DNA of 64,000 nucleotides from Actinomycetota bacterium (GTDB taxonomy: Bacteria > Actinomycetota > Actinomycetes > Propionibacteriales > Nocardioidaceae). The position numbers and the translations under genes are program-made. Of this stretch, positions 55,876 through 63,257 are shown in pieces (position 1 is the first letter of the stretch; each line of letters begins with the position of its first letter). The stretch is taken from contig WLJH01000015.1 of assembly GCA_009701885.1 (NCBI GenBank), positions 29,718 to 93,717 of the forward strand, read 5' to 3'. The notes below the pieces were generated by a model. That model saw only the letters and a list, made by a program, of their open reading frames with translations, was not told the origin of the DNA and did no database searches.

Positions 55876-55948
55876 GCGCCTGTAGCTCAACGGATAGAGC
55901 ATCTGACTACGGATCAGAAGGTTTGGGGTTCGAATCCCTACAGGCGCG
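55876..55948 (+). tRNA. tRNA-Arg (ACG)
   Basis: A 73-base tRNA: acceptor GCGCCTG/CAGGCGC, D arm GTAGCTCAACGGATAGAGC, anticodon stem TCTGA/TCAGA with loop CTACGGA (anticodon ACG), T arm GGGGTTCGAATCCCT. CCA is not encoded. tRNA-Arg genes are common attachment sites; the genes downstream are accessory, but I see no integrase or second copy of the 3' end in the window. Confidence 0.95.
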
Positions 55949-55961
55949 CAGATCGATCAAG

Positions 55962-55994
55962 CCGCAGGTCAGCCCGCTGACCTGCGGTTTTGTC
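55962..55994. terminator. tRNA-Arg intrinsic terminator
   Basis: CCGCAGGTCAG, CCCG loop, CTGACCTGCGG, then TTTTGTCGTTT. This is a perfect 11-base stem with a T-rich tail, one of the few classical terminators here. Confidence 0.9.
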
Positions 55995-55998
55995 GTTT

Positions 55999-56153
55999 CT
56001 GAGGTCGCCAGAACCGCTCGTTGAACCCGCAAGCAACGGGCCCAAGACCGGCTCCGGGCACTGTGCGGGCACACTCCGGGCACAGTTGCCTCTCGGCAGA
56101 GGGCTTCTGACGCCCGTCAGAGAGGCCCGTCCCCGGGCCCGCTGAGGTCGCCA
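55999..56153. repeat. Repeats in the gap between tRNA-Arg and hsdM
   Basis: The 12-mer CTGAGGTCGCCA occurs at 55999 and 56142, flanking 131 bases. Inside, CGGGCAC occurs three times at exact 11-base spacing (56055, 56066, 56077), and CTGACGCCCGTCAG is a 6-base-arm palindrome (56106-56119). The 299-base gap (55949-56247) holds no gene. The arrangement could be remnant recombinase arm sites. Confidence 0.5.
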
Positions 56154-56186
56154 AGAGGTGATCCGCGGCCGACCTTCCACGCCGTT

Positions 56187-56202
56187 GTCGGAGGCCTCCG
56201 AC
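56187..56202. promoter_or_regulatory. 16-bp perfect palindrome upstream of hsdM
   Basis: GTCGGAGGCCTCCGAC lies 46 bases before the hsdM ATG. It may be a binding site controlling the restriction-modification operon. No controller gene is present. Confidence 0.4.
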
Positions 56203-56247
56203 ATCCTGCTCGGCTGCCCGGAAGGACCGGCCGGCAGGAGGTCCTCC

Positions 56248-57744
56248 ATGTCCACGCCCACTGGCGCTGCGGTCACTAAGGTAAATCCCGTGATCACGGG
56301 TGAGTTGAAGAGCAAGATCGACCGCGTCTGGGACTCCTTCTGGTCCGGCGGCATCAGCAACCCGCTCGAGGTCATCGAGCAGATCACCTACCTGCTCTTC
56401 ATCCGCCGCCTCGACGACATCCAGACGCTGGCCGAGAAGAAGGCCCGGGTCACGGGAGCCGCCGTCGAGAATTCCGTCTTCCTGCCCGGCCAGGTGCACC
56501 TGCGGTGGAGCCAGTTCAAGAACACCTCGCCCGAGGTGATGCACAAGACGATCGCCGACGAGGTGTTCCCGTTCCTGCGCGGCCTGGGCGACGGCAGCAC
56601 CTACAGCGAGCACATGAAGGACGCCCGGTTCACCATCCCGACGCCGGCGCTGCTGTCCAAGGTCGTCGACATGCTCGACGACATCCCGATGGCCGACCGC
56701 GACACCAATGGCGACCTCTACGAGTACCTGCTCTCCAAGATCGCCTCAGCCGGCGTCAATGGTCAGTTCCGCACCCCACGCCACATCATCGATTTGATGG
56801 TGCAGATGACCGCGCCCCAGCCGGGGGACGAGATCTGTGACCCCGCGTGCGGCACGGGCGGCTTCCTCGTCGCCGCGAGCGAGTACGTCCGCGACAGGCA
56901 CGCCGACGCGCTGCTCGACCAGGCGCAGCGCAAGCACTTCCACGCTTCGATGTTCCACGGCTACGACTTCGACTCCACCATGCTTCGCATCGGCAGCATG
57001 AACATGCTGCTGCACGGGATCGAGACCCCTGACATCCGCTACCGCGACTCCCTCTCCGAGGGAGCGGCCGGGGACGCCGACAAGTACACCCTCATCCTCG
57101 CCAATCCGCCCTTCGCCGGATCGCTCGACTACGAGTCGACAGCCAAGGACCTCCAGCGGATCGTCAAGACCAAGAAGACCGAACTCCTCTTCCTTGCACT
57201 GCTACTCAAGCTGCTCAAGCCGGGCGGCCGCGCAGCAGTGATCGTTCCCGACGGCGTCCTCTTCGGTTCCAGCACTGCGCACAAAGCACTGCGCAAGATG
57301 CTGGTGGAGGAGCAGAAGCTCGATGCGGTGGTGAAGTTGCCCTCCGGTGTCTTCCGTCCGTATGCCGGCGTGTCGACGGCGATCCTCTTTTTCACCAAGA
57401 CCAACTCCGGCGGCACCGACGACGTCTGGTTCTACGACGTTCGCGCCGACGGCTTCTCCCTCGATGACAAGCGCAGCCTCGTTGAGGCCAACGACCTGCC
57501 CGACGTGCTCAGTCGCTGGCAGCGCCGCGACGTTGAGAAGAGCCGCGCCCGCACCGAGCAGTCGTTCCTCGTACCCAAGACCGACATCGTCGCCCAGGAC
57601 TACGACCTCTCGCTGAACCGCTACAAGGAGGTCGTTCAAGACGAGGTCGAGCACCGCGCGCCGTTGGAGATCATCGCCGACATGGAGACGCTTGAGGACG
57701 AGATCGCCAAGGGTCTCACCGAACTCAAGGCGATGCTCTCGTGA
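56248..57744 (+). CDS. hsdM: Type I restriction-modification DNA methyltransferase, HsdM subunit
   Basis: A 498-residue N6-adenine methyltransferase. The HsdM N-terminal helical domain (ELKSKIDRVWDSFWSGGISNPLEVIEQITYLLFIRRLDD) precedes the SAM-binding DPACGTGGFLVAASEY and the catalytic LILANPPFAGSLDY (NPPF). It methylates the host site with HsdS. ATG 56248 has AGGAGG 6 bases upstream; a GTG at 56290 with TAAGGT 7 bases upstream is an alternative leaderless start closer to the family's usual N-terminus. Its stop overlaps hsdS by 4 bases. Confidence 0.95.
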   Translation: MSTPTGAAVTKVNPVITGELKSKIDRVWDSFWSGGISNPLEVIEQITYLLFIRRLDDIQTLAEKKARVTGAAVENSVFLPGQVHLRWSQFKNTSPEVMHKTIADEVFPFLRGLGDGSTYSEHMKDARFTIPTPALLSKVVDMLDDIPMADRDTNGDLYEYLLSKIASAGVNGQFRTPRHIIDLMVQMTAPQPGDEICDPACGTGGFLVAASEYVRDRHADALLDQAQRKHFHASMFHGYDFDSTMLRIGSMNMLLHGIETPDIRYRDSLSEGAAGDADKYTLILANPPFAGSLDYESTAKDLQRIVKTKKTELLFLALLLKLLKPGGRAAVIVPDGVLFGSSTAHKALRKMLVEEQKLDAVVKLPSGVFRPYAGVSTAILFFTKTNSGGTDDVWFYDVRADGFSLDDKRSLVEANDLPDVLSRWQRRDVEKSRARTEQSFLVPKTDIVAQDYDLSLNRYKEVVQDEVEHRAPLEIIADMETLEDEIAKGLTELKAMLS

Positions 57745-58820
57745 CGGCGGTCGGCGACATCCTGGAACTCTCGTACGGGAAGGCGCTCAAAAAGGCCGAC
57801 AGGGACGGCGGAGACGTGCCGGTGGTCGGTTCCGGAGGCGTCGTCGGAGGGCACTCCAGCGGCATCACCGATGCACCGACCATCGTCGTCGGACGTAAGG
57901 GCAGCATCGGCAGCGTCACGTGGGTCGATGGTCCTGCCTGGCCCATCGATACTGCGTACTTCGTGAAACCGAAGGGGGATGACCTCGACCGACGTTGGGC
58001 CTACTGGATGCTCCGGTCGCTCCACCTGGAGACGATGAACAAGTCCGCCGCGGTGCCTGGCCTGAATCGCGATGACGTCTACCGACTTAACGTGACTGTC
58101 CCACCGGTCGCCGAGCAGCGCCGCATCGCAGCGATCCTCGACCACGCCGACGCCCTGCGCAGTAAGCGCCAGCAGGTTCTCACTCACCTCGACGTTCTGG
58201 CGGAATCAATCTTCGACGAGTTCTTCGCAGAACCGCCGAGTCGGTGGTGGCCACTGAACGACCTAGCGGAGAAGGTGGTCGTTGGACACGTTGGGCCGAC
58301 CAGCGAGTTCTTCCGTCCTACAGGGGTTCCCTTCCTGCGGACCGGGAACGTAGGCAAGGGGCGACTCGTTCGTGATGGCTTGGCCCATGTCACGACCGAA
58401 TTTCACGAACGTTTGCAGAAGAGCCAGATTCGCAAGGGCGACGTCCTTATCTCGCGAGTCATAACCGACGAGGTGCGTGCCGCAGTAACGCCACCTGAGT
58501 TCGATGGAGCCAACTGCGCGAACATCATCGTCGTCCGCCCGAGTGATCGTCTGCTGCCCAGCACAGTTCTTGGCTACATCAGTCGCGGCGGGACCCAGCG
58601 ACGACTTGTCGGGCGACGAGTTGGATCCGCTCAAGGAGTCGTCAACACAACTGTCCTAAAGGAGCTGCCGATGCCGCTCTACCCGGTGGAAGCCCAACGG
58701 CGTCTCGCAGATCGGGTAGAAAGGATGACAGTGCAAGGCGTCGCCGTCCAGCGCGCTCTCGAAGCCAACGACAGCCTCTTTGCCTCACTCCAGTCACGCG
58801 CATTCCGAGGGGAATTGTGA
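57741..58820 (+). CDS. hsdS: Type I restriction-modification specificity subunit HsdS
   Basis: A 359-residue specificity protein with two target-recognition domains. Each TRD is followed by the conserved helix: NVTVPPVAEQRRIAAILDHADALRSKRQQVLTHLDVLAESIF (about 115-155) and PLYPVEAQRRLADRVERMTVQGVAV near the C-terminus. The recognised sequence is bipartite and cannot be predicted. Base composition drops here compared with the chromosomal genes, as usual for hsdS. The next gene starts 3 bases after its stop. Confidence 0.92.
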   Translation: MTAVGDILELSYGKALKKADRDGGDVPVVGSGGVVGGHSSGITDAPTIVVGRKGSIGSVTWVDGPAWPIDTAYFVKPKGDDLDRRWAYWMLRSLHLETMNKSAAVPGLNRDDVYRLNVTVPPVAEQRRIAAILDHADALRSKRQQVLTHLDVLAESIFDEFFAEPPSRWWPLNDLAEKVVVGHVGPTSEFFRPTGVPFLRTGNVGKGRLVRDGLAHVTTEFHERLQKSQIRKGDVLISRVITDEVRAAVTPPEFDGANCANIIVVRPSDRLLPSTVLGYISRGGTQRRLVGRRVGSAQGVVNTTVLKELPMPLYPVEAQRRLADRVERMTVQGVAVQRALEANDSLFASLQSRAFRGEL

Positions 58821-58823
58821 CCG

Positions 58824-59903
58824 ATGCCCGTTGAGATGAGGATGTGGCGCATCGATGGCGACGAGCCAAAGCCGTTAACAACGTCGGTACTGCCCGCTGA
58901 GAAAGATCTGCACGAGTTCCTCAAGCGTGACCCGTCACTGCTGGGCGAGCGGCTGCTCGTGATCGGCAGCGAGGTCATCACGCCGTACGGCCCGCGCCTC
59001 GACCTGCTGGCGATCGATGCCGAGGGCAATCTCAACCTGCTCGAGCTCAAGCGTGACAAGACTCCCCGCGAAGTCGTGGCCCAGGTGCTCGATTACGGCT
59101 CGTGGGCCTCGACTCTGTCTCGTGAGGACGTCATCGACATCGCCACCAAACACCTTGATCAGCCGTTCGAGGCGGCCTTCGAGGATGTGTTCGGTAGCGC
59201 ACCACCTGATGAGCTCAACGGCGATCTTCGCCTCACCATCGTGGCGGCTGAACTCGACGCCAGTTCCGAGCGCATTGTGAACTACCTGCGCGACTTCGGG
59301 GTCCCGGTCAACGCGGTGTTCTTCTCCTACTTGGAGGACGACGACCGTCGCTACCTCGCCCGCTCGTGGCTGGCGGCGTCCGATGAGGACGCTCTTGCGG
59401 CGCCCAGCCTCAGCAAAAAGAGCAAGAAGGCGCAGTGGAACGGCATCGACTGGTACGTCTCCTATGGAGGTCACCGTGTCTGGGAGGACGGCCGCACGTT
59501 CAACTTCATCTCGGCGGGCGCAGGCAAGTTCTACTCCCAGACCATCCGTTCGCTGCCCGAGGGCGCCCGCGTCTGGGTCAACGTCCCGGGCACCGGCTTC
59601 GTGGCCGTGGGCAGGACCCTGGGACCTGCTGCTCGGTTCGAAACGGCCGAGGTGCTGATCAATGGTGAGTGGACGCCGCTGGCGGACAAGCCACTCGCGA
59701 CGGATTATGCGTTCGCTGTCGCCGACCTTCACGACGATGACGCGGAATGGGTCGTGCCGGTGGAGTGGCTCGATGCCCGACCGCAGGGCGAGGCGTTCTG
59801 GGAGAAGGGCATGTTCGCCAGCCAGCACAGTGCCTGCAAGCTCCGCCAGGAGTTCACCCTCGAGCGCCTGGCCGACCACTTCGATATCGACGAGGGCGAG
59901 TAG
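58824..59903 (+). CDS. NucS/EndoMS-like (DUF91) nuclease domain protein within the RM operon
   Basis: A 359-residue protein between hsdS and hsdR. The N-terminal part has a PD-(D/E)xK nuclease core like NucS: SEVITPYGPRLDLLAIDAEGNLNLLELKRDKTPREVVAQVLDYGSW (about residues 50-95), with Asp in RLDLL and ELK as the metal/catalytic residues. The C-terminal half (WNGIDWYVSYGGHRVWEDG...EGARVWVNVPGTGFVAVGRTLG) reads like a PUA/EVE-type beta-barrel, a fold known for reading modified bases; that call is by eye. It is translationally adjacent to both neighbours, suggesting it belongs to the defence system. Confidence 0.75.
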   Translation: MPVEMRMWRIDGDEPKPLTTSVLPAEKDLHEFLKRDPSLLGERLLVIGSEVITPYGPRLDLLAIDAEGNLNLLELKRDKTPREVVAQVLDYGSWASTLSREDVIDIATKHLDQPFEAAFEDVFGSAPPDELNGDLRLTIVAAELDASSERIVNYLRDFGVPVNAVFFSYLEDDDRRYLARSWLAASDEDALAAPSLSKKSKKAQWNGIDWYVSYGGHRVWEDGRTFNFISAGAGKFYSQTIRSLPEGARVWVNVPGTGFVAVGRTLGPAARFETAEVLINGEWTPLADKPLATDYAFAVADLHDDDAEWVVPVEWLDARPQGEAFWEKGMFASQHSACKLRQEFTLERLADHFDIDEGE

Positions 59904-59909
59904 TCGACG

Positions 59910-62900
59910 ATGGGGAACTTCGACTTCGTCCGCCAGACGCTGCCGTCACTGCACGATGACTGCGCGCGGGCCGAGTCGTACCTGTCCTCCGACCCGAGGT
60001 CGGCCTGCTTCTACAGCCGCCGGGTGGTCGAGGAGTTGGTCGGCTACCTCTACGACGTCCTAGCCCTGCCCATCCCGTACCGCGACGATCTGGCGGCGAA
60101 GATCGGCGACGCCGCGTTCAAGTCGCAGGTTCCCCAAGGCATCACGCAGAAGCTGACCGCGATCCGTCGTATCGCCAACACCGCGGTGCACGAGAATCGG
60201 CAGATTCGCCCTGACGTGTCGTTGGCGGTGCTGCGCGAGCTGTTCAACGTCGTCGTGTGGACCTCGTACCACCACTCCCCGGCGCCGACCGCGGTGCCGT
60301 TGCAGGCGCAGTTCGACCCGGCCCTGGCCGCCAAGGCTGCGCCGCTGTCGCGTGAAGACGTCGCGCGCCTCGCGGCGAAGTTCAAGGAGCAGGACGAGGC
60401 CCACTCCCGTGCGCTGGCCGAGAAGGACGACCTCGTAGCGGCACGCGATGCGGAGATCGCGGAGCTGCAGGCTCAGATCGCCGCCGCCCAAGCGGAGGCC
60501 GCGCCCGACACGCGTGACTACGACGAGGCCGCCGCCCGCGACCTGTTCATCGATGTCCTCCTCCACGAGGCCGGATGGAAGCTCGACGAGGAGCGCGACC
60601 GCGAGTACCCCGTCACCGGCATGCCGAATGCCGAGGGCCACGGCTTCGTCGACTACGTCCTCTGGGGGGCCGACGGTCTCCCGCTGGCAGTGGTCGAGGC
60701 GAAGCGGACGTCGAAGTCGCCAGAGATCGGCCAGCAGCAGGCCAAGCTGTACGCCGACTGCCTCGAGAAGCAGTTCGGTCGGCGACCCGTCATCTTCTAC
60801 ACCAACGGCTACGAGCACCGGATCTGGGACGACGCCGGCGGCTACCCGCCACGCGAGACCCAGGGCTTCTACACCCGCGACGAGCTGGAGCTGCTGATCC
60901 AGCGCCGCCAGACCAAGCTCCCGTTGTCCTCGGCGCAGGCGAACACCGACATCGCCGGACGCCCCTACCAGGTGCGGGCCATCAAGGCCGTGGGCGATGC
61001 GTTCGACCGCAAGCAGCGCGAGGCCCTGCTGGTGATGGCCACCGGGTCCGGGAAGACCCGCACCACCATCGCGCTCGTAGATCTGCTGCAGAAGGCGAAC
61101 TGGGTCAAGCGGGTGCTGTTCCTGGCCGATCGGACTGCTCTGGTCAACCAGGCAGCCAACGCCTTCAAGCAGCACTTGCCTGGCTCGACCACCGTCAACC
61201 TCGTGACCGAGAAGGCCATCGAGGGACGCGTCTACGTCTCGACGTACCCCACGATGATGAACCTCATCAACGAGATCGACGACGGCCAGCGCCGCTTCGG
61301 GCCGGGCTACTTCGACCTCATCGTGATCGACGAGGCCCACCGCTCGGTGTATGCCAAATACGGCGCGATCTTCGACTACTTCGACTCATTGCTCGTCGGG
61401 CTCACCGCGACGCCCAAGGACGAGGTCGACCACAACACCTACCGGCTCTTCCACCTCGAGGACGGCGTCCCCACCGACAACTACTCCCTCGACGAAGCAG
61501 TCGACGCCGGCTACCTCGTGCCCCCTAAGGGCATCAGCGTCGGAACCCAGTTCCTGCGCTCCGGCATCACCTACGACGACCTCACCGAAGAGGAGAAGGA
61601 TCAGTGGGACAGCCTCGACTGGGGCGAGGACGGTCCGCCCGACGAGGTCGGCGCCGAGGAGATCAACCGCTTCCTCTTCAACGAAGACACCGTCGACAAG
61701 GTCCTCGAGACCCTGATGCTGCAGGGCTACAAGGTCGCCGGCGGCGACCGGCTGGGCAAGACGATCGTCTTCGCCAAGTCCCAGAAGCACGCTGAGTTCA
61801 TCGAGAAGCGCTTCAACCTCGCCTACCCCGAGCTCGCCGGCCACTTCGCCCGGGTGATCACCCACGGCACGCCCTACGCCCAGTCGCTGATCGACGACTT
61901 CTCCATCCACGACAAGGCGCCGCACATCGCGATCAGCGTCGACATGCTCGACACCGGTATCGACGTGCCCGAGGTCGTCAACCTCGTCTTCTTCAAGATG
62001 GTCCGCTCGAAGTCGAAGTTCTGGCAGATGATCGGCCGCGGCACCCGCCTGTGCCCCGACCTCTTCGGCCCCGGGGAGGACAAGCAGGACTTCCTCGTCT
62101 TCGACTTCTGCGGCAACCTCGAGTACTTCAGCCAGGACCTCCCCGGATCCCAGGGACAGACCCAGAAGTCGCTCTCCCAGCGTCTCTTCGAGGCAAGGCT
62201 CGGACTCGTCACCGGACTCGGCGACGAAGAACCCGACCTGCGCTGGACCACCGCCGCGACGCTGCATGAGGTCGTCGCTGGCATGAACCTCGACAACTTC
62301 GTCGTCCGCCCCCACCGCCGGGCCGTCGAGAAGTACGCGGATGCAGACGCGTGGAACCGCATCGAGCCCGAGGACTCGGAGGCGCTGCTCACACTCGCCG
62401 GGCTTCCCTCCTCGGTCCGCGATGACGACGAGGACGCCAAGCGCTTCGACCTCCTCGTCCTGCGACGCCAGCTCGCCCAGCTCGACGGCGACGCTGTGCT
62501 TGCCGAGCGACTCCGCGAGCCCATCCAGCACATCGCAGCCGCGCTGCTCGGCAAGACCACCATCCCGTCCGTCGCCGAGCAGGCCGTGCTGCTGGAGTCG
62601 GTGGCCGGCGACGAGTGGTGGATCGACGTAACCCTGCCGATGCTGGAGTTAGCGCGCCTCCGCATCCGCGGTCTCGCACGGTTCATCGAGAAGACGGCAC
62701 GCAACCCCGTCTACACCGACTTCGAGGACACGATCGGTGAGGGCGTCGAGGTGGTGCTTCCACGAGTCACGCCCGGGACGAACTTCGAGCGCTTCCGCGC
62801 CAAGGCCGAGGCGTACCTCCGCGAGCACCTCGACAACCTCGCCCTGCAACGGCTCCGCCGTAACAAACAGCTCACCGCAGCAGACCTGACCGAGCTGGAG

Positions 62901-63257
62901 CAGATGCTCGTCGCTTCCGGTGGACAGCAGGTCGACATCACCTGGGCAACTGAGCAGGGCGGGCTCGGGCTCTTCGTTCGCGGTCTCGTCGGCCTCGACC
63001 GCACCGCGGCGGCGGAGGCCTTCGAGAACTACCTGGACGGCACCAGGTTCTCCGCCGACCAGGTCCGCTTCATCAGCCTCATCGTCGACGAGTTGACCAG
63101 GAACGGCGTCATGGAGCCGGCCCGCCTCTTCGAGTCCCCCTACACCGACCACGCCCCCACGGGACCCGACTACGTCTTCCCGGACGCCGATGTAGACGCC
63201 ATCGTTGCGACCCTGCATCAGATCAAGCAGACCGCTCTCCCAGAGGACGTCGCCTGA
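59910..63257 (+). CDS. hsdR: Type I restriction endonuclease, HsdR subunit with DUF4145 N-terminus
   Basis: An 1115-residue motor-nuclease. N-terminal DUF4145 domain (MGNFDFVRQTLPSLHDDCARAESYL..., to about 120), a coiled coil (REDVARLAAKFKEQDEAHSRALAEKDDLVAARDAEIAELQAQI), then the nuclease core YVLWGADGLPLAVVEAKRTSKSPEIGQQQA (Asp and ExK). The SF2 translocase follows with LVMATGSGKTRTTIALVDLL, LIVIDEAHRSVYAKY and MIGRGTRLCPDLFG. It cleaves unmodified DNA after translocation. The DUF4145 part replaces the standard HsdR N-terminus and is common in EcoKI-like relatives. Confidence 0.95.
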   Translation: MGNFDFVRQTLPSLHDDCARAESYLSSDPRSACFYSRRVVEELVGYLYDVLALPIPYRDDLAAKIGDAAFKSQVPQGITQKLTAIRRIANTAVHENRQIRPDVSLAVLRELFNVVVWTSYHHSPAPTAVPLQAQFDPALAAKAAPLSREDVARLAAKFKEQDEAHSRALAEKDDLVAARDAEIAELQAQIAAAQAEAAPDTRDYDEAAARDLFIDVLLHEAGWKLDEERDREYPVTGMPNAEGHGFVDYVLWGADGLPLAVVEAKRTSKSPEIGQQQAKLYADCLEKQFGRRPVIFYTNGYEHRIWDDAGGYPPRETQGFYTRDELELLIQRRQTKLPLSSAQANTDIAGRPYQVRAIKAVGDAFDRKQREALLVMATGSGKTRTTIALVDLLQKANWVKRVLFLADRTALVNQAANAFKQHLPGSTTVNLVTEKAIEGRVYVSTYPTMMNLINEIDDGQRRFGPGYFDLIVIDEAHRSVYAKYGAIFDYFDSLLVGLTATPKDEVDHNTYRLFHLEDGVPTDNYSLDEAVDAGYLVPPKGISVGTQFLRSGITYDDLTEEEKDQWDSLDWGEDGPPDEVGAEEINRFLFNEDTVDKVLETLMLQGYKVAGGDRLGKTIVFAKSQKHAEFIEKRFNLAYPELAGHFARVITHGTPYAQSLIDDFSIHDKAPHIAISVDMLDTGIDVPEVVNLVFFKMVRSKSKFWQMIGRGTRLCPDLFGPGEDKQDFLVFDFCGNLEYFSQDLPGSQGQTQKSLSQRLFEARLGLVTGLGDEEPDLRWTTAATLHEVVAGMNLDNFVVRPHRRAVEKYADADAWNRIEPEDSEALLTLAGLPSSVRDDDEDAKRFDLLVLRRQLAQLDGDAVLAERLREPIQHIAAALLGKTTIPSVAEQAVLLESVAGDEWWIDVTLPMLELARLRIRGLARFIEKTARNPVYTDFEDTIGEGVEVVLPRVTPGTNFERFRAKAEAYLREHLDNLALQRLRRNKQLTAADLTELEQMLVASGGQQVDITWATEQGGLGLFVRGLVGLDRTAAAEAFENYLDGTRFSADQVRFISLIVDELTRNGVMEPARLFESPYTDHAPTGPDYVFPDADVDAIVATLHQIKQTALPEDVA

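Follow-up and report, generated by a model that had tools for sequence, protein, structure and literature searches.

What does a two-domain nuclease do between the specificity and restriction genes of a type I restriction-modification operon? The question is raised by a 359-residue protein encoded in the window, by which we mean the whole 64,000-nucleotide stretch of DNA analysed here. Its open reading frame (58824-59903, plus strand) starts with ATG and ends with a TAG stop at 59903. The TGA stop of hsdS ends at 58820 and is followed by CCG and then by the ATG, leaving 3 bases between hsdS and the gene, and 6 bases separate the gene end from the hsdR start at 59910; the exact bases thus confirm the placement and spacing given by an earlier reading of the sequence alone (the sequence-only reading). 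The same reading made the gene a member of the operon, in agreement with the gene order conserved in related loci. The type I operon is complete in the window, with hsdM, hsdS and hsdR together on the plus strand: hsdM (PF02384, E 1e-65; HsdM_N, 9e-17; PADLOC MTase_I, E 3e-199) is given as its longest open reading frame, 56158-57744, the true start lying possibly further in, near 56248; hsdS (57741-58820) encodes the specificity subunit (PF01420, E 2e-19; PADLOC Specificity_I, E 1.5e-65); and hsdR (59910-63257) encodes the restriction/translocase subunit (ResIII, 2e-38; EcoEI_R_C, 5e-22; PADLOC REase_I, 3e-176) with an N-terminal DUF4145 domain (4e-10). Just upstream of the operon ARAGORN places a tRNA-Arg (acg) gene (55876-55949, plus strand), a probable island boundary. 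G+C is ~0.73 upstream of this tRNA gene versus 0.62-0.68 downstream, and the lower downstream value fits an acquired island; the region 55876-63257 is probably a tRNA-associated defence island. A terminator-like hairpin (55959-55990) lies after the tRNA gene and before the type I operon. A search for sigma-70 promoters returned no consensus match, although such a consensus search is uninformative in this organism.

A structure model built with a 69-member alignment (pLDDT 88) divides the protein into two domains joined by a disordered linker (residues 188-204, 59385-59435, plus strand; pLDDT <50 at 188-199). The first half (residues 1-187, 58824-59384, plus strand) has a PD-(D/E)xK core with the catalytic residues of the NucS/EndoMS type. 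In a fold search its best matches are the NucS/EndoMS structures 5gke and 2vld (E 2-4e-5), followed by SduA; it also matches a NucS-type profile (2vld, E 6e-6), and Pfam NucS_C aligns with E 1e-4, under the cut-off at 22.5 versus 24 bits. The NucS/DUF91-type core proposed in the sequence-only reading is thus borne out by fold and profile, the motif being real but weak at sequence level. That reading also took loss of the active-site Asp, Glu and Lys in most members as evidence against its proposal; D60, E74-x-K76 and Q87 (59001-59084, plus strand) are each invariant in 69/69 aligned members. The protein as a whole does not belong to the NucS family. It shares with NucS/EndoMS the PD-(D/E)xK core and the motif order, but the NCBIfam NucS model (NF003270) scores 36 bits, far under its 216-bit cut-off, with the alignment limited to residues 23-91, and the mismatch-binding N-terminal domain of NucS is absent from the protein, which carries an EVE/YTH-like barrel instead. 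Nor is it a Shedu protein by sequence, as SduA_C gives 14.5 bits against a cut-off of 27, and neither Mrr_N nor Mrr_cat of Pfam matches the gene product.

The C-terminal half (residues ~205-355; 59436-59888, plus strand) is a putative modified-base reader. Modelled alone, it forms an EVE/YTH-like barrel of the PUA superfamily with a pLDDT of 92 and a pTM of 0.89. Nearly all of the PDB matches listed for this C-only model are EVE, YTH or ASCH domains; they include YTH with m6A, THYN1 with 5mC DNA and VcaM4I, a modification-dependent endonuclease (6yex, prob 1.00), with TM-scores of ~0.45-0.55, which are moderate. Residues ~205-355 have no Pfam match, sequence models of EVE, YTH and ASCH gave no match to the 69 members at E up to 10, and solved PUA domains and PDB sequences gave no sequence-level match to the barrel. 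Since neither Pfam nor solved structures supply a sequence-level relative, the assignment is made from the fold and holds at superfamily level. The PUA/EVE-like character that the sequence-only reading had suggested for this half agrees with both the structure model and the fold search. The protein therefore combines a reader domain with a nuclease whose catalytic residues are intact, which is the type IV/MDRE architecture. Among 347 actinobacterial genomes we found no case of this barrel fused to another effector, and the 8 strong matches coincide with PDC-S11 matches.

PDC-S11 is the label under which the protein can be placed among known defence candidates. The PADLOC profile PDLC04916 matches it over its full length (residues 1-355 on profile positions 1-356 of 358, E 1e-140), and the gene lies in a defence locus both in the window and in 22 of 80 related loci (the best 80 of at least 541). 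Guilt-by-embedding is the basis on which PDC entries were proposed, with no mechanism attached (PMC10855318), and PDC-S11 is an unverified label that pools proteins sharing the NucS-like half with other C-terminal halves. In L195-L198, L200 and L201 the NucS-like half is common, and the C-terminal halves are different and non-barrel. PDC-S11 thus appears to pool several architectures. Closest in design to the window protein are VcaM4I and other PUA-superfamily MDREs (type IV), in which a PUA-superfamily reader is likewise fused to a nuclease. VcaM4I is an EVE-HNH protein with an N-terminal reader, and in its EVE pocket sits a flipped-out 5mC or 5hmC base (PMC7897488); in the window protein, by contrast, the nuclease is of the NucS PD-(D/E)xK type and comes first, and modification dependence is putative. 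Shedu (SduA), too, is a defence nuclease of the PD-(D/E)xK kind, and its sequence and fold weakly resemble the nuclease half, but a barrel of this sort is not part of Shedu. A precedent for EVE-superfamily readers next to hsd operons exists, with the proposal that they extend restriction to modified DNA (Bell et al. 2020, PMC7641849); that paper makes no mention of NucS or DUF91, and PIN-GNAT-EVE and DCD fusions have architectures unlike that of the window protein.

Comparison of related type I operons reveals a cargo slot between hsdS and hsdR. An HsdR-based search recovered the same type I family both with and without the gene; in close relatives the slot holds the gene, Mrr, Fic, MNT-HepT, HNH-type open reading frames or nothing, hsdS then being followed directly by hsdR. 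Mrr, the commonest alternative cargo seen, consists of Mrr_N and Mrr_cat, and several loci have its start at a distance of 1-3 bases from the hsdS stop; L048 and L049 contain both genes, one after the other. To fit the HsdR tree, the gene must have been gained or lost at least seven times and Mrr at least six times. Between L157, which carries Mrr, and L158, which carries the gene, homology breaks off sharply at the slot: the identity is 88% through hsdM and 92.5% from 2 bp upstream of the hsdR start, and in the slot Mrr and the gene have nothing in common. Within its closest clade the gene thus behaves as a replaceable accessory and not as a fixed part of the operon. Apparently broken gene copies, with a disrupted frame or a premature stop, occur in L041 and L042 in intact-looking type I operons and are consistent with an expendable accessory. 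Other occupants were also observed: a RusA-like gene (Pfam RusA just over cut-off) takes up the last 0.5 kb between the cargo (Mrr or PDC-S11) and hsdR in L156 and L158, and a Salinivibrio type I operon carries an anticodon nuclease gene in this slot (L022:3259-4434). Mrr is an established type IV, modification-dependent family (PMC12707154). It occupies the same hsdS-hsdR slot in the same type I family, sometimes beside the gene, but its winged-helix (wHTH) reader is unrelated to that of the window protein, and its Mrr_cat domain represents a different nuclease family. Because the Mrr that it replaces is a type IV enzyme, a type IV role of the gene becomes more likely, though not proven; a shared slot is no proof of shared function, as Fic, MNT-HepT and HNH proteins occupy it too.

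A scan of ~85,000 species genomes gave at least 541 relatives, the best 80 of which were analysed; the counts below refer to these closest relatives and to sampled genomes, with simple ORF calling. In 22 of the 80 loci, all of the closest clade (61-83% identity), the gene follows hsdS of the same type I family at a fixed position, in nearly all embedded loci with the 3-bp spacing (L048 and L049 have a 1-bp overlap instead). The genera concerned include Nesterenkonia, Phycicoccus, Micropruina, Microbacterium and Hoyosella, and the recurrence of the 3-bp spacing in related type I loci of other genera argues that the arrangement is not due to chance. Four members of 65-70% identity (L038, L039, L045 and L046) lie outside the operon, one of them near BREX genes. 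Below ~60% identity, homologs among the best 80 of at least 541 are mostly outside the hsdM-hsdS-gene-hsdR operon: some belong to another restriction-modification operon, some lie close to BREX, Zorya or other type I genes, and some have no recognised defence gene around them. Most of the more distant homologs lack a recognised defence gene next to them, and free-standing homologs showed no clear excess of defence genes next door relative to genes >6 kb away, a comparison made with simple ORF calling in G+C-rich DNA. Since many distant homologs are away from recognised defence genes, guilt by association weakens beyond the close clade. The sequence-only reading had counted homologs lying mainly outside defence operons as evidence against it; on this point the close clade lies mostly inside, as the reading expected, and the wider family is often outside. 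In four genomes (L068, L090, L091 and L094) a homolog is the last gene of an operon that otherwise encodes a DEAD helicase, a GIY-YIG (T5orf172) protein and a type IIG enzyme resembling MmeI; this is a second, independent restriction-modification partnership of PDC-S11 homologs. On the Klebsiella plasmids L020 (7710-10044) and L023 (7668-10002) a PD-(D/E)XK nuclease-family gene precedes a distant (29%) homolog, and Salinivibrio L022 has a comparable pair after its hsdR; such a pair is possibly a two-gene unit. The distribution is patchy, any match being found in 8 of 59 relatives and in 18 of 397 genomes across the phylum. A tblastn search of INPHARED found no phage homolog, and none was found in IMG/VR with a single-sequence query that reaches close relatives only; these searches give no apparent sign of an arms race from that side.

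The two halves of the protein differ in their history. Among type I-embedded members the mean identity is 80-82% in the nuclease half, 64% in barrel residues 205-266 and 42% in residues 267-306; in members outside the operon, the conservation of barrel residues 205-266 (68%) equals or exceeds that of the nuclease (61% and 51%). Pairs whose nucleases are 95-98% identical fall into discrete barrel types, with 73-95% identity within a type and 41-62% between types. The L037 nuclease is 97-98% identical to those of L027, L028, L029 and L033, and its barrel is 85% identical to that of L044, though the L044 nuclease is only 84% identical. The nucleotide identity crosses over at residues ~195-205, within the disordered linker, and on sequence grounds L037 is a clear recombinant. 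The barrel tree rejects the grouping of L037 with its nuclease kin (AU p 1e-3 for protein, 1e-15 for nucleotide); the clade test on the nuclease half, which has few informative sites, gives AU p 0.35 for protein and 0.17 for nucleotide. Synonymous differences are also higher in the barrel than in the nuclease (39% versus 31% of identical residues), which fits replacement of the barrel by a diverged allele and makes rapid amino-acid change alone a less likely cause of the divergence. Coupling of barrel type to HsdS was considered too and is rejected, as barrel similarity is not correlated with HsdS similarity (rho -0.14, p 0.12; 17 loci, with non-independent pairs, so that p is only a guide); nor does it track HsdM or HsdR over the same 17 loci of non-independent pairs. 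As judged from these alignments and trees, the barrel is exchanged separately from the nuclease and from HsdS, and its independence from HsdS argues that it does not read the operon's own methylation site.

We propose that the gene encodes a restriction nuclease of a modification-dependent, type IV-like kind, which the type I operon carries as interchangeable cargo and which has a swappable reader; we regard this interpretation as somewhat better than an even chance. The EVE/YTH-like barrel would recognise a modified base in DNA entering the cell, by analogy with VcaM4I probably through base flipping, and the NucS-type PD-(D/E)xK domain would then cut the bound DNA. HsdRMS attacks DNA without the host methyl mark, and the gene product would attack modified phage or plasmid DNA that escapes the type I enzyme, with barrel exchange shifting the target preference. 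This proposal best explains the EVE/YTH/ASCH fold, the invariant catalytic residues, the slot shared with Mrr, the independent exchange of the barrel and the second restriction-modification partnership. The sequence-only reading had left the substrate as modified or mismatched DNA; a reader of modified DNA is the better interpretation, and a mismatch role is unsupported because only the nuclease core resembles EndoMS/NucS, the mismatch-binding domain being absent.

Four other explanations have to be weighed against this proposal. The fixed position between hsdS and hsdR with its 3-bp spacing might reflect an accessory subunit of the type I enzyme: associated with HsdRMS, it would recognise the 6mA mark that HsdM leaves and would modulate cutting at cognate sites or add to it. 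HsdM belongs to the N6-adenine methylase family, m6A is a mark that YTH domains read, and the barrel fold search places YTH-m6A structures high. We consider this unlikely, as barrel similarity is independent of HsdS (rho -0.14, p 0.12), HsdM and HsdR, homologs also occur with unrelated systems or alone, and in close type I operons without the gene hsdS is followed directly by hsdR or by other cargo. An RNA-directed or abortive nuclease, whose barrel would read modified tRNA, rRNA or other RNA and which would cut RNA or host DNA upon infection, is improbable to the same degree. RNA is the ligand of most characterised YTH domains and of many EVE domains, members of the EVE superfamily are also part of predicted RNA-targeting systems (CoCoNuTs, PMC11090510), and the slot accepts toxin-type cargo such as Fic and MNT-HepT, with the Salinivibrio anticodon nuclease also within an hsd operon; against this, the core is closest to the DNA nucleases EndoMS, NucS and SduA, the commonest alternative cargo is the DNA enzyme Mrr, and an antitoxin partner was not found.

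The discrete allelic types confined to one domain would also fit diversification as an escape from phage-encoded nuclease inhibitors with the target unchanged. The variable part is the putative target reader, however, and the catalytic domain, equally exposed to inhibitors, is nearly frozen; this explanation, which is compatible with a modification-dependent nuclease and not exclusive of it, seems to us quite unlikely as the cause of reader diversity. Least probable of all, and only slightly less so, is a DNA repair or mismatch nuclease of the NucS/EndoMS type that came to lie in the operon by happenstance. The nuclease half does find its best matches, in sequence as in fold, among NucS/EndoMS proteins, but the NucS match is confined to residues 23-91 at 36 versus 216 bits, the N-terminal domain is missing, and a patchy distribution, exchange with Mrr and reader swapping are unexpected for a housekeeping repair enzyme.

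Taken as a modification-dependent nuclease, the protein raises a broader idea, which we put forward tentatively and rate at a little less than even: one type I locus may hold two independently reassorting recognition systems, HsdS for unmodified DNA and, for modified DNA, a cassette-swapped reader on a frozen nuclease. The reader cassettes would then do for modified bases what the shuffling of target domains does for HsdS, and barrel types would differ in the modification or sequence context that they read. PDC-S11, so far a defence candidate without a mechanism, gains an architecture (NucS-type cutter plus EVE/YTH-like reader) and a putative target class, modified DNA. Near-identical nucleases with different readers constitute a natural experiment. 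Should the readers differ in specificity, these proteins would offer a ready-made collection of modification-dependent nucleases with which new phage DNA modifications could be found, and bacteria would be seen to shuffle their readers of modified bases in much the same way as type I target domains. The exchange of Mrr and PDC-S11 at one slot speaks for the recruitment of type IV partners by type I systems against escape by modified DNA.
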